NCBI RefSeq assembly: GCF_004765815.2
Contig: NZ_ML974127.1
Span: 908,927 to 972,926 of the forward strand
Origin: Halorussus salinus
GTDB taxonomy: Archaea; Halobacteriota; Halobacteria; Halobacteriales; Haladaptataceae
Length of the DNA: 64,000 nucleotides
Reading direction: 5' to 3'
The notes beneath the pieces were generated by a model. The model saw only the letters and a program-made list of their open reading frames with translations. It made no database searches and was not told the DNA's origin. This document shows, one piece after another, positions 25,437 to 28,785 of the stretch. The stretch's first letter is position 1. Every line of letters starts with the position of its first letter. The position numbers and the translations under genes are program-made.

Positions 25437-25958
25437 ATGGGATTGGTAGACGACTCGCGGGTCACGGTGTTTCTGGGCGGATTCTTGCTGTCGCTCCTCG
25501 CGCTGGTCGGCGTCACCGCCTTGGGCGCGTTCGCGGTTCTCTCGGCGCTACTCGACCCGGCCGCGGGGACGCCGCTGCTGGTCGCGCTGTTGGAGACGGC
25601 CGCGCCCTTCGTCGCCGTCGTCGCCATGCTCGGATTCGTCTCGCTCCTGTTGCTCGTCGGTCTCGTGGTCACCGCCGTCCGAAGCGCCTCGATACCGCGT
25701 AGCGACCGACTGGCGCGACTCGCTCGGGTCGTCGAGCGTCACTCCTCGGACGCGCGAGACCTCGGCCTCTCCGAGAAGCTCGAACCGACGACCGACGACC
25801 GCATCGACCAGTTGAAACGCCGGTACGTCGAGGGCGAACTTACCGAACTGGAGTACGAGCAACGGCTCCAAGAGTTGATGACCGAGGAGGGCGTGAGCGA
25901 CGAGCGCGTCCGCCGCGAACGGGAGCGGACGGGTCGAGAACGCGAGTACGAGTGGTGA
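25437..25958 (+). CDS. SHOCT-domain membrane protein
   Basis: 173 residues. Two long hydrophobic helices near the N-terminus (VTVFLGGFLLSLLALVGV and FVAVVAMLGFVSLLLLVGLVV) are followed by a basic linker, and a C-terminal SHOCT motif (DRIDQLKRRYVEGELTELEY, then a Glu/Arg helix). SHOCT is a short oligomerisation motif found at the ends of membrane proteins. The start at ATG 25437 follows the repeats by 35 bp. The function is unknown. It ends in a charged tail REREYEW. Confidence 0.8.
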   Translation: MGLVDDSRVTVFLGGFLLSLLALVGVTALGAFAVLSALLDPAAGTPLLVALLETAAPFVAVVAMLGFVSLLLLVGLVVTAVRSASIPRSDRLARLARVVERHSSDARDLGLSEKLEPTTDDRIDQLKRRYVEGELTELEYEQRLQELMTEEGVSDERVRRERERTGREREYEW

Positions 25959-26070: not shown

Positions 26071-26117
26071 TCAAAAAGTATGGTCGAGCCGAAATTGTAG
26101 CTTTGCGCTACAGGCTC
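26071..26117 (-). terminator. hairpin plus T-run terminator of the Cys-rich microprotein
   Basis: Read on the minus strand right after the TAA: GAGCC-TGTAGC-GCAAA-GCTACA-ATTTC-GGCTC forms a two-part stem (26086-26117), followed eight bases later by TTTTT (26073-26077). This looks like an intrinsic terminator. It supports a short dedicated transcript of roughly 140 nt from the promoter near 26240. Confidence 0.6.
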
Positions 26118-26186
26118 TTACCGGTCGCAGTAGCAGACGCCGTTGTTACAGATACAATCGAGCGGTGAGACGTTGAACAGGAACAT
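26118..26186 (-). CDS. 22-residue Cys-rich microprotein
   Basis: No family recognised. The product reads MFLFNVSPLDC followed by ICNNGVCYCDR: four cysteines in a C-x-C-x5-C-x-C pattern, with a hydrophobic N-terminus. Expression signals are unusually complete: a near-perfect Shine-Dalgarno GGAGGTGA (26193-26200) six bases before the ATG, a strong AT-rich promoter core (26236-26247) giving a ~29-nt leader, and a hairpin-T-run terminator immediately after the stop. Most haloarchaeal messages are leaderless, so a strong SD stands out. The Cys pairs could bind zinc, copper or iron, or form disulfides. It may also act as a regulatory leader, but no gene follows on this strand for over 200 bp. Confidence 0.6.
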   Translation of the reverse strand: MFLFNVSPLDCICNNGVCYCDR

Positions 26187-26192
26187 TCTTTG

Positions 26193-26200
26193 TCACCTCC
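26193..26200 (-). promoter_or_regulatory. strong Shine-Dalgarno site of the microprotein
   Basis: GGAGGTGA on the minus strand is complementary to the 3' end of archaeal 16S rRNA and is spaced six bases from the ATG. It is the best SD seen in this window and the main reason to accept such a short ORF. Confidence 0.65.
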
Positions 26201-26235
26201 ACCCACACCAAGAGTACATTAATTTAAAAATTTTT

Positions 26236-26247
26236 CTTATATATTTA
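26236..26247. promoter_or_regulatory. AT-rich promoter core between the microprotein and folCP
   Basis: CTTATATATTTA lies in a ~35-bp A/T block. On the minus strand (AAATATATAAG) it would start transcription near 26215, 29 nt before the microprotein ATG. On the plus strand it would start near 26268, giving folCP a ~37-nt leader. One block may serve both directions. Confidence 0.55.
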
Positions 26248-26304
26248 TTAGTATTCCGTCGGGGGTCCGATACTCTAAAGCGCGCCGCGCGAATCTTCCC
26301 AGAC

Positions 26305-28785
26305 ATGGACTATCACGAGGCGGCGAACTTCCTGTTCGACCTGCGTCGGTTCCGCCCGAAACCGGGCACGGAATCGACCGCGGCGTTGCTCGCCCACCTC
26401 GGCGACCCCCACGAGGAGGTCGATTTCGTGCAGGTGGCCGGGTCGAACGGGAAGGGTTCGACGGCCAGAATGACCGAGCGTGCGCTCCGCGAGGCGGACC
26501 TCGACGTGGGACTCTACACCTCCCCGCACTTCGACGACGTGCGCGAGCGCGTCCGGGTGAACGGCCGGAAGATTCCGAAGGCGGCGCTCGCGGAGTACGT
26601 CGCGTCGGTGAAGGAGTACGTCGAGGACAAGGCCGCCGACGGCGAAGCCCCGACGTTCTTCGAGGTGATGACTGGTCTCGCGCTCTGGTACTTCGGCCGT
26701 GAAGAGGTAGACGTGGCACTCCTCGAAGTCGGCATCGGCGGGAAGTACGACGCGACCAGCGTCGTGGACCCCGTCGCCAGCGCGGTCACGAGCGTCACCT
26801 TGGAACACACCGGCATCATCGGCGAGACCATCGCGGAAATCGCCCACGACAAAGCCCACGTCGCGCCCGCCGACGCGCCGCTCGTGACCGCGACGACCGG
26901 CGAGGCGCTCGAAGCAGTGCGAGAGCAGGCGGGCGAAGTCGTCCGCGTCGGCGACTCTACTGACGCAGACGAAGCCCCGGACGTGCGGGTCGAGTACCGC
27001 GGCCGGACCAACCACACCGAGGCGGCCGTCTCGCTCTCCGGCCCGGACTGGACCGTCGAAACCGAGATACCCCTCCTCGGCGAGTATCAGGCCCGAAACG
27101 CGGGCGTGGCGGCCGCGCTCGCCCGGCAAGTCGCGACCCACCGCGACCTGCCCGAATCGGCGCTCGACGCCGACGCACTCGGCCGCGGCCTCCGGAAGGC
27201 CGACTGGCCCGGCCGGTTCGAGGTGATGGGTCGGGACCCCGTGGTCGTCCTCGACGGGGCGCACAACCCCGGCGCGTGCGAGGCGCTGGCCGAGACCGTG
27301 AGCGAGTTCGACGGCGAGTACGACGACCTCCACCTCGTGTTCGGCGCGATGCACGACAAGGACCTCCGCGGGATGGCAGAGGCCCTGCCGACCCCCGACC
27401 GGATGGTCGCCTGCCAACCGAACTTGGACCGCGCGGAGGACGAGGAGGTCGTCGCCCGCGCCTTCGACGAGGCCGGTGCTGGCGAGGTCCTGACTCGGAA
27501 CGCGGTGGAGGGCGCGGTCGAGAACGCGCTGAACGCGGCCGACGAGAACGACCTCGTGTTGGTCGCGGGGTCGCTGTTCGCGGTCGCGGAGGCCCGGACG
27601 CGCTGGACCCGCGCCGAGATACCCAAGCGCATCCGGAATCTGGACGACGCCCGCGAGGCGCTCGAAGGCGCGGACGTGACCGACCCCGGCGTCTGGCGGA
27701 TGCGGGGCAAGGCGGTCCACCGCGTCCTCAAAACGCGGGTACAGGTCCGACAGGCCCGCTACCTCAAAGAGGAGATGCTGAGCCTCGGCGGGGAGTGTGC
27801 GGTCTCGGGGACCAACGAGCAGGACGACCAGAACGTGGACGTGGTGCTGATGGGTACCCTCGCGCAGTTCAAGCGCCTCGCCGGGAAGTTGGACGGCCAG
27901 CCCTACGGTCTCTCGGTGTTCGCCGACGAACTGCGGGACGCGCTCGGCATCCAGACCGACCGCGAGCGCCGGAGCTACCCGTGGGAGGAGGGCACCGCCG
28001 TCATGGGCATCCTGAACGTCACGCCCGACTCGTTCCACGACGGCGGGCGCTACGAGGCCGTCGAGGACGCGGTTTCGCGCGCCGAGGAGATGGTCGAAGC
28101 CGGAGCCGACATCATCGACGTGGGCGGCGAATCGACTCGCCCCGGCGCGGACGAGATTCCGGTCGCGGACGAAATCGACCGCGTGGTGCCCGTCATCGAG
28201 CGAATCGCCGACGCGGACGCGCTCGTCTCCATCGACACGCGGAAGGCCGAAGTCGCGGAGGCGGCCCTCGACGCTGGCGCGGACATTCTCAACGACGTGT
28301 CCGGTCTCGAAGACCCGGAGATGCGCTTCGTCGCGGCCGACCACGACGCGCCCATCGTCGTGATGCACAGCATCGACGCGCCGGTCGTGCCCGAGAAAGA
28401 TGTTCACTACGACGACGTGGTCGAGGACGTGATAGACGAACTGGAGGAGAAGGTCCTGCTGGCCGAGAAGGCAGGTCTCGACCGCGAGCAGATTATCGTG
28501 GACCCCGGACTCGGCTTCGGCAAGGAGAGTGCCGAGAGTTTCGAGCTACTGGGCCGGACCGACGAGTTCCACGCGCTGGAGTGTCCGGTCTTGGTCGGGC
28601 ACTCCCACAAGTCGATGTTCGGTCTCCTCGGCGAAGACGACGACCGGACCGCGGCGACGGTGGCCGGGACCGCCATCGCGGCCGAGCGCGGCGCGGACAT
28701 CGTTCGCGTCCACGACGTGGCCGAGAACGTCGCGGCGGTGAACGCGGTGGAGGCGGCCGATACGCCGGAGCGATTCGAGGAGTAA
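26305..28785 (+). CDS. folCP: bifunctional folylpolyglutamate synthase / dihydropteroate synthase (FolC-FolP fusion)
   Basis: 826 residues joining two folate enzymes, a fusion known from haloarchaea. Residues 1 to ~420 are FolC: P-loop VAGSNGKGST (~44-53), EVGIGGKYDATS, the Mur-ligase motif LDGAHNPGA. Residues ~565-826 are FolP: MGILNVTPDSFHDGG at ~568, IDVGGESTRPGA, ILNDVSGL, DPGLGFGK at ~732, VGHSHKS at ~765. A middle domain (~425-560) with WRMRGKAVHRVLKTRVQVRQ and a GGECAVSGTNEQDDQN segment belongs to neither enzyme. The start at ATG 26305 is chosen because the upstream extension is AT-rich non-coding DNA. Confidence 0.93.
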   Translation: MDYHEAANFLFDLRRFRPKPGTESTAALLAHLGDPHEEVDFVQVAGSNGKGSTARMTERALREADLDVGLYTSPHFDDVRERVRVNGRKIPKAALAEYVASVKEYVEDKAADGEAPTFFEVMTGLALWYFGREEVDVALLEVGIGGKYDATSVVDPVASAVTSVTLEHTGIIGETIAEIAHDKAHVAPADAPLVTATTGEALEAVREQAGEVVRVGDSTDADEAPDVRVEYRGRTNHTEAAVSLSGPDWTVETEIPLLGEYQARNAGVAAALARQVATHRDLPESALDADALGRGLRKADWPGRFEVMGRDPVVVLDGAHNPGACEALAETVSEFDGEYDDLHLVFGAMHDKDLRGMAEALPTPDRMVACQPNLDRAEDEEVVARAFDEAGAGEVLTRNAVEGAVENALNAADENDLVLVAGSLFAVAEARTRWTRAEIPKRIRNLDDAREALEGADVTDPGVWRMRGKAVHRVLKTRVQVRQARYLKEEMLSLGGECAVSGTNEQDDQNVDVVLMGTLAQFKRLAGKLDGQPYGLSVFADELRDALGIQTDRERRSYPWEEGTAVMGILNVTPDSFHDGGRYEAVEDAVSRAEEMVEAGADIIDVGGESTRPGADEIPVADEIDRVVPVIERIADADALVSIDTRKAEVAEAALDAGADILNDVSGLEDPEMRFVAADHDAPIVVMHSIDAPVVPEKDVHYDDVVEDVIDELEEKVLLAEKAGLDREQIIVDPGLGFGKESAESFELLGRTDEFHALECPVLVGHSHKSMFGLLGEDDDRTAATVAGTAIAAERGADIVRVHDVAENVAAVNAVEAADTPERFEE

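Follow-up and report, generated by a model that had tools for sequence, protein, structure and literature searches.

A four-cysteine microgene beside folCP in Halorussus salinus and its dispersed, fast-evolving family of putative thiol-acting peptides

The nearest described kind of gene product to the one considered here is the C(P)xCG zinc-finger micro-proteins of Haloferax volcanii (including HVO_0758), which are up to 70 residues long and carry two C(P)xCG motifs (PMC11241148, PMC10716476). The microgenes described below share with them very small size, Cys pairs, many paralogs per genome and a plausible thiol or metal chemistry; unlike them, they encode 16-25 residues, usually with two Cys, behind an AT-rich promoter and a near-perfect Shine-Dalgarno (SD) motif, and as far as tested they are restricted to the Haladaptataceae. 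None of 50 collected peptides has two CxxCG motifs, which places them outside the C(P)xCG group. Short copper metallothioneins of the Neurospora type contain CxC motifs, with seven Cys in about 25 residues. The copy in the window, our term for the whole 64,000-nucleotide stretch of Halorussus salinus DNA analysed, is alike in size and in its two CxC motifs, but it has four Cys rather than seven, finds no Pfam match and belongs to a family whose members mostly carry two Cys and lack CxC. Microhalocins, archaeal lanthipeptides and autoinducing peptides are short, Cys-bearing, diverse and fast-evolving, and so are the microgene products; the latter differ in that the whole ORF is 16-25 codons, without a leader peptide and without a recurring maturation, transport or immunity gene among the neighbouring ORFs as read. 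Bacterial Cys-codon leader peptides, which serve as attenuators, are again very short ORFs with clustered Cys codons, a likeness shared by the microgenes, which nevertheless stand alone, mostly facing a convergent gene, with no regulated gene downstream.

Database comparison places the peptides in no named group. Neither the window peptide nor any of ten others, among them its ortholog in another Halorussus species (G020), has a Pfam or NCBIfam match, short queries giving little search power; even at E<=10 the window peptide finds no Pfam or NCBIfam family, metallothionein families included, and it has no match in the PDB, both searches being of low power with so short a query. Against PHROGs, a short-query search yielded a single marginal hit (E 0.039), in a family of unknown function, and searches of open-access papers turned up no account of a family like this one. 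The sequence-only reading of this locus had set the peptide apart from the longer Cys-pair microproteins of haloarchaea, and the comparison agrees: its length falls below that of the C(P)xCG micro-proteins, and no Pfam or NCBIfam family matches it.

The window gene lies on the minus strand between folCP and a gene for a SHOCT-like membrane protein (Table 1). Direct reading bears out the compact layout first proposed for it, with promoter-like DNA, an SD six bases before the ATG, and 22 codons. Its Cys pairs, CIC and CYC, are separated by four residues and not by five as originally counted. The promoter-like DNA assigned to a TATA core is indeed AT-rich, but the element that aligns with the family is AGAAAAATTTTT, rather than or besides the TATATAA further upstream. 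The proposed terminator, a hairpin followed by TTTTT, is strong in the window (-15.8 kcal/mol, z -3.6; none of 200 shuffles folds as well), but in G020 the hairpin is not conserved (z +0.8) and the T-run alone is kept, as a T5 run CATATTTTTG at a similar place.

Table 1. Positions of the microgene features and neighbouring genes in the window
Feature	Position	Strand	Basis or remark
22-codon ORF MFLFNVSPLDCICNNGVCYCDR, C-x-C-x4-C-x-C	26118..26186	-	Direct sequence reading; ATG at 26186, TAA stop at 26118-26120
SD motif GGAGGTGA	26193..26200	-	6-nt spacer to ATG; same in G020 ortholog
AT-rich promoter-like DNA	26216-26252	-	Direct reading
BRE/TATA-like element AGAAAAATTTTT	26226..26237	-	Fixed family position, -37 to -26 from first G of SD; 50-member profile
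Extra AT-rich stretch taataaatatataag	26236..26250	-	5' of family TATA position; probably the TATA core of the sequence-only reading
Probable transcription start area	26198..26203	-	At or just 5' of SD; from TATA position and pyrimidine before SD
Two-part hairpin GAGCC-TGTAGC-GCAAA-GCTACA-ATTTC-GGCTC	26086..26117	-	Fold compared with shuffles
T5 run, candidate U-run terminator	26073..26077	-	Direct reading
folCP (fused folylpolyglutamate synthase / dihydropteroate synthase)	26306..28785	+	Divergent neighbour, outside microgene
SHOCT-like 173-aa membrane protein	25437..25958	+	Convergent neighbour, named from sequence only, outside microgene

Is this a solitary gene, as it had first appeared? 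It is instead one of at least 16 microgenes in the host genome. A DNA search of that genome matched the spacer at a second place about 317 kb away, at the promoter, SD and start only. When 70 of the 77 GGAGGTGA-ATG sites were examined by reading the ORFs that follow them, 14 proved to follow AT-rich DNA (above 52%). Of these, 13 lead into ORFs that are 18-23 codons long and contain two to four Cys; the remaining 56 sites follow GC-rich DNA and mostly start long ORFs. These ORFs explain why the place 317 kb away shares promoter, SD and start alone. A search with the shorter SD, GGAGGT, added three members, and the resulting total of at least 16 is a lower bound from pattern searches. The host microgenes have 17-23 codons, an AT-rich promoter, a TATA element fixed relative to the SD, GGAGGT(GA) just ahead of the ATG and, towards the C-terminus, two or more Cys. 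They encode MIDIFPRNPYICIHPCTP, MFGINLFHHCELTDPACLH, MFAIELTPLKRCYHSLGCGGP, MINISLFDNTWCPHCRRL, MFGFNPLHVCDPYIDNGC, MFFLFPTEVKCPPSYVTC, MFGISITDYIPPCSVTQFGCQ and MRLIKAVPCAGTWEPLLCRL, together with the window peptide MFLFNVSPLDCICNNGVCYCDR, MFGFSTFAWYCRPCGSGDSTV, MAFEISVVPFCTCEEFPTLEC, MLFTTPFDCGIHKCLPV, MISIRPFGCGAFACDPRPW, MFEIFAWGCGYYAGAGEVVCLG, MVDLFAWGCGYHYGSSQVICLG and MIVEALCTAGYCPCDAFPPYYCP. The four-Cys pattern is confined to a few subgroups and most members have two Cys, spaced 1-10 residues apart; on average the peptides carry a net charge of -1.4 and are hydrophobic over their first eight residues. On the plasmid-like host contig C7 (L290, L294, L295) we also noticed a Cys-rich protein of 50-53 aa (e.g. 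MSTTTTLEDGECPACKAPIWAITADSPTEHTLQPCGCTL...) and, some 150 nt away, another conserved ORF, with GGAGGTGA at each; there are several copies of this pair, and relatives occur on Halorussus plasmids.

The same unit recurs in related genomes. The pattern W7-N12..42-GGAGGTGA-N3..8-ATG matches 13 of the 18 genus genomes (no match in G011, G016, G019, G021 and G027), and the same pattern reversed has almost no matches, with zero in nearly all genus genomes. From strict-pattern places in the taxonomic family we collected 50 distinct peptides of 16-29 residues; the collection demanded at least one Cys and all 50 carry at least two, and 43 have F, I, L or M at position 2. Nearly all members collected with the strict pattern have GGAGGTGA; every family copy found has an SD, for which the search itself selected. 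The window copy has all the defining features of a member, that is, TATA at -30 to -27, GGAGGT(GA) before the start, a length within about 14-29 codons, at least two Cys and a hydrophobic residue 2. Two of the 50 come from a second genus (G006), and one of these two shares its purA locus with a G020 member (MMFGFGLQIWCDYLGC against MMIDFTPMIWCDYLGC). Cys content was also compared with no Cys requirement, among ORFs of 14-30 codons at the same loci in Halorussus and one relative of the second genus: two or more Cys occur in 54 of 60 SD-led ORFs behind AT-rich DNA and in 18 of 86 SD-less short ORFs (Fisher p=2e-17, an approximate value because a few of the 60 are nested within, or nearly identical to, others).

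The promoter-SD pattern, sought in 392 genomes across the order, is concentrated in Halorussus, and a sequence model of promoter plus SD gave 25 matches at E<=0.05 in 327 genomes, 23 of them in Halorussus and two preceding ordinary ORFs; the search would miss copies with a weaker SD. The model R1 recovers the window copy (E 0.016), on which among others it had been trained; since training members are bound to match, the information lies solely in the lack of matches elsewhere. One new match, in G022, opens with GTG when read by eye (MILPPCTPYTWCPF). The promoter-SD matches fetched from outside the Haladaptataceae are hydrophobic or amphipathic peptides or ordinary genes, with no Cys pairs. A pattern of SD plus x4 Cys spacing found true copies in the window and G020 only among the 392 genomes, the other matches looking out of frame or like ordinary coding DNA, and a profile of this pair found no further convincing relative in the order. 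An SD plus CxCx4CxC scan of genome contigs returned unrelated bacterial matches among the matches listed. Other small SD-led ORFs were seen along the way. In G353, from another family of the order (L394-L396), such ORFs lie behind AT-rich DNA and look amphipathic, without Cys (e.g. MGWLQIATQMFKHITGIVDIWV, MSFEIPDIDWFEFGHAAIDFLANWF), perhaps a parallel microgene class; genomes of family f15 (L372, L373, L375) have hydrophobic ones of 29-37 codons (e.g. MSPTMFLTLVVPLSVALFVTEWLFAPRAQ) with AT-rich promoters. A Halorussus caseinilyticus plasmid (G013:C3, L334) has two near-identical acidic 30-aa ORFs close together, reading MTNNTDDAMEAVTEEV[DS]DDDLFVAEPYV[VQ]S, which resemble precursor peptides.

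At the folCP locus itself, a protein search covering 28 genomes in the taxonomic family gave a single clear relative of the window peptide, MFSFPVSPLDCVCNDEGCYCGDF in G020, in the syntenic position between folCP and the SHOCT-like gene. Its four Cys and its SPLDC block are retained, as is the SD, with GGAGGTGACAACGT before its ATG. The ORFs are 0.72 identical, against 0.59 and 0.56 for the upstream and downstream flanks, and the 21 codons compared differ by five synonymous and eight replacement changes, leaving the V-SPLDC-x-C-N block unchanged. folCP and the SHOCT-like gene form an old synteny that persists across the taxonomic family. In the close relatives G014 and G017 the folCP spacer is short and lacks the microgene; the host (G000), G014, G017 and G020 form one supported clade in the folC tree, and the gene was therefore gained or lost inside that clade. 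An AT-rich promoter-like stretch in the spacer upstream of folC in G024 (L094), with neither an SD nor a Cys ORF, may be what is left of a lost microgene. The sequence-only reading had staked the gene on conservation of its Cys and SD, and both persist in G020; the same ORF beside folCP, which it proposed to seek in other haloarchaea, is present in that species, but the occurrence is patchy, in two of 18 Halorussus genomes. Its first interpretation is thus supported in part: a stand-alone microgene with conserved Cys and SD stands, and the five-residue spacing and the implied conserved hairpin terminator fall away.

Constraint at the level of codons extends to the family. Among 16 pairs of orthologs or paralogs, differences number 63, 43 and 97 at codon positions 1, 2 and 3, and the ORF is more similar than the upstream flank in 16/16 pairs and than the downstream flank in 15/16; because the pairs partly overlap, this evidence is supporting rather than independent. 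As judged from these comparisons, the 22-residue four-Cys gene is almost certainly real, and we consider it very probable that it and its family exist as described. That it is an independently transcribed gene in a dispersed, fast-evolving family of putative thiol-acting peptides is, in our view, probable, and the thiol mechanism taken by itself is at best equally so.

How could such small peptides act? The standard unit combines a BRE/TATA promoter, spaced constantly relative to a perfect or near-perfect SD, with a predicted very short leader, some 16-25 codons and a stop, and the predicted peptide has a hydrophobic start (M-F/I-x-F/I) and two to four Cys near its C-terminus. If translated, as we infer, the peptides would act through their thiols, the hydrophobic N-terminus docking on a partner protein or membrane and the Cys pair closing a disulfide loop or holding a metal between two chains. 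The negative charge and hydrophobic first eight residues would suit such docking. Most members have only two Cys, and a mononuclear four-thiolate metal site therefore cannot be the shared function; with two Cys at spacings of 1-10 residues, a disulfide loop or an inter-chain metal is more likely than a single four-thiolate site. The window copy, one of the few four-Cys variants, could be an exception, its CxCx4CxC thiols holding one metal ion (Zn or Cu(I)) by themselves. The most likely role is that of small thiol effectors, metal- or disulfide-based.

The main rival to thiol effectors is that the peptides are exported or processed signalling or antagonistic molecules, comparable with bacterial autoinducing or arms-race peptides, in which the hydrophobic N-terminus would serve export or transporter binding and a variable, disulfide-closed C-terminal loop would bear specificity. 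This would explain the many dispersed copies and their rapid divergence, and the loops do vary (Cys spacing 1-10) around a conserved N-terminus and Cys. Peptides at shared loci diverge fast across species, and across genera at purA; at the valS-TFB locus the host has MISIRPFGCGAFACDPRPW, G020 has MIPITLFDCGRHKCLPRP and G014 a similar MISILPFGACGVFECVPHKG, with start, Cys and SD staying in place. Patchy gain and loss is likewise what such peptides would lead one to expect. However, there is no recognisable signal or leader peptide, and in a reading of the neighbouring ORFs no gene for maturation, transport or immunity came up repeatedly. Nor do the window SPLDC and WGCGY groups have relatives in viral contigs or plasmids; the SPLDC pair found nothing in viral and genome contigs or, by tblastn, in plasmids and phages. 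We regard this reading as unlikely. One viral contig match, SPLDCNCLASACDC (L135), was dropped as antisense within a phage structural region. An origin of the gene in a mobile element was also set aside: convincing terminal repeats are lacking, and the spacer has no second copy beyond the promoter-SD match to another member.

The geometry of the unit raises a different possibility, that the transcripts are mainly small regulatory RNAs, with an SD-like 5' end and a TCGTATCG 3' element, and that the peptide is incidental. The 5' geometry is very uniform: in the SD-aligned profile of 50 members, positions -37 to -32 are A-rich, -30 to -27 are 96-100% A/T, and C or T precedes the first G of the SD in 82%. 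This profile fits an archaeal BRE/TATA box, which by the usual distance would put the transcription start at or just before the SD and leave a leader of SD plus spacer, about 14-17 nt. Leaderless mRNAs prevail in Haloferax volcanii, where translation was shown not to need an SD in the 5'-UTR (PMC3986360), so the presence of an SD alone is no proof of translation; an SD that does not help translation might have another purpose. On the 3' side, CGTATCG occurs within 60 nt in 10 of 50 members against 0.26 expected, mostly about 14 nt past the stop, a near-fixed distance. A TCGTATCG-like element is found in about a third to half of members and is not treated as defining because half at most have one; the window copy has no clear one, only a weak TTTATCG-ACGAAACC further downstream. 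Such a 3' element recurs as AGTCGTATCG-N5-AAACGACC, often about 14 nt after the microgene stop and often followed by T residues (L007, L014, L267, L297, L301, L310, L343 and others), and may be a hairpin, a terminator or a protein-binding site. Against a primarily RNA function stand the concentration of changes at third codon positions, the greater conservation of the ORF than of its flanks, the retention of Cys and N-terminus though the RNA sequence diverges, and the lack of the 3' element in about half of members, and we think it improbable.

Neighbouring genes differ at each locus and look housekeeping-like (purA, purB, valS-TFB, aconitase-rimI, thermosome and folCP, by ORF reading only), and the downstream gene is convergent at most loci, the window included. 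Most microgenes thus face a convergent gene and therefore appear to be stand-alone units, not leader peptides. An attenuator sensing cysteine supply for a downstream gene would fit the short ORF, the clustered Cys codons, the strong SD and the window hairpin followed by a T-run, but it is very unlikely with no co-directional gene following in the window or at most loci, neighbours unrelated to sulfur metabolism as far as read, and an unconserved hairpin. A chance ORF in an AT-rich spacer, where Cys codons are frequent in short ORFs (at least two Cys in the 18 of 86 controls), is hardly credible and is largely refuted by the comparative data, namely the ortholog that keeps SD and Cys, the family-wide statistics, the codon-position bias and the near absence of the reversed pattern.

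Gene finders pass over ORFs this small, and a family of at least 16 genes per genome has apparently gone unseen; in the one annotated record consulted, the H. caseinilyticus plasmid NZ_CP119810, a spacer with two copies is blank in the distributed, incomplete gene table. The family offers a natural test of SD-dependent initiation at 5' leaders in haloarchaea, which has been denied for Haloferax volcanii (PMC3986360), and the SD in every copy found makes it a useful counter-case, with the proviso that presence of an SD does not prove its use. It also provides dispersed, minimal thiol peptides in which conserved parts and variable ones are open to separate tests. We suggest, tentatively, that more than a dozen dispersed, rapidly diversifying Cys peptides of about 20 residues, carried by Halorussus and its nearest relatives and produced from one unit, may represent an unrecognised thiol signal or effector system, and may be the sole class of genes in these haloarchaea that systematically keeps an SD at the start of a monocistronic mRNA.
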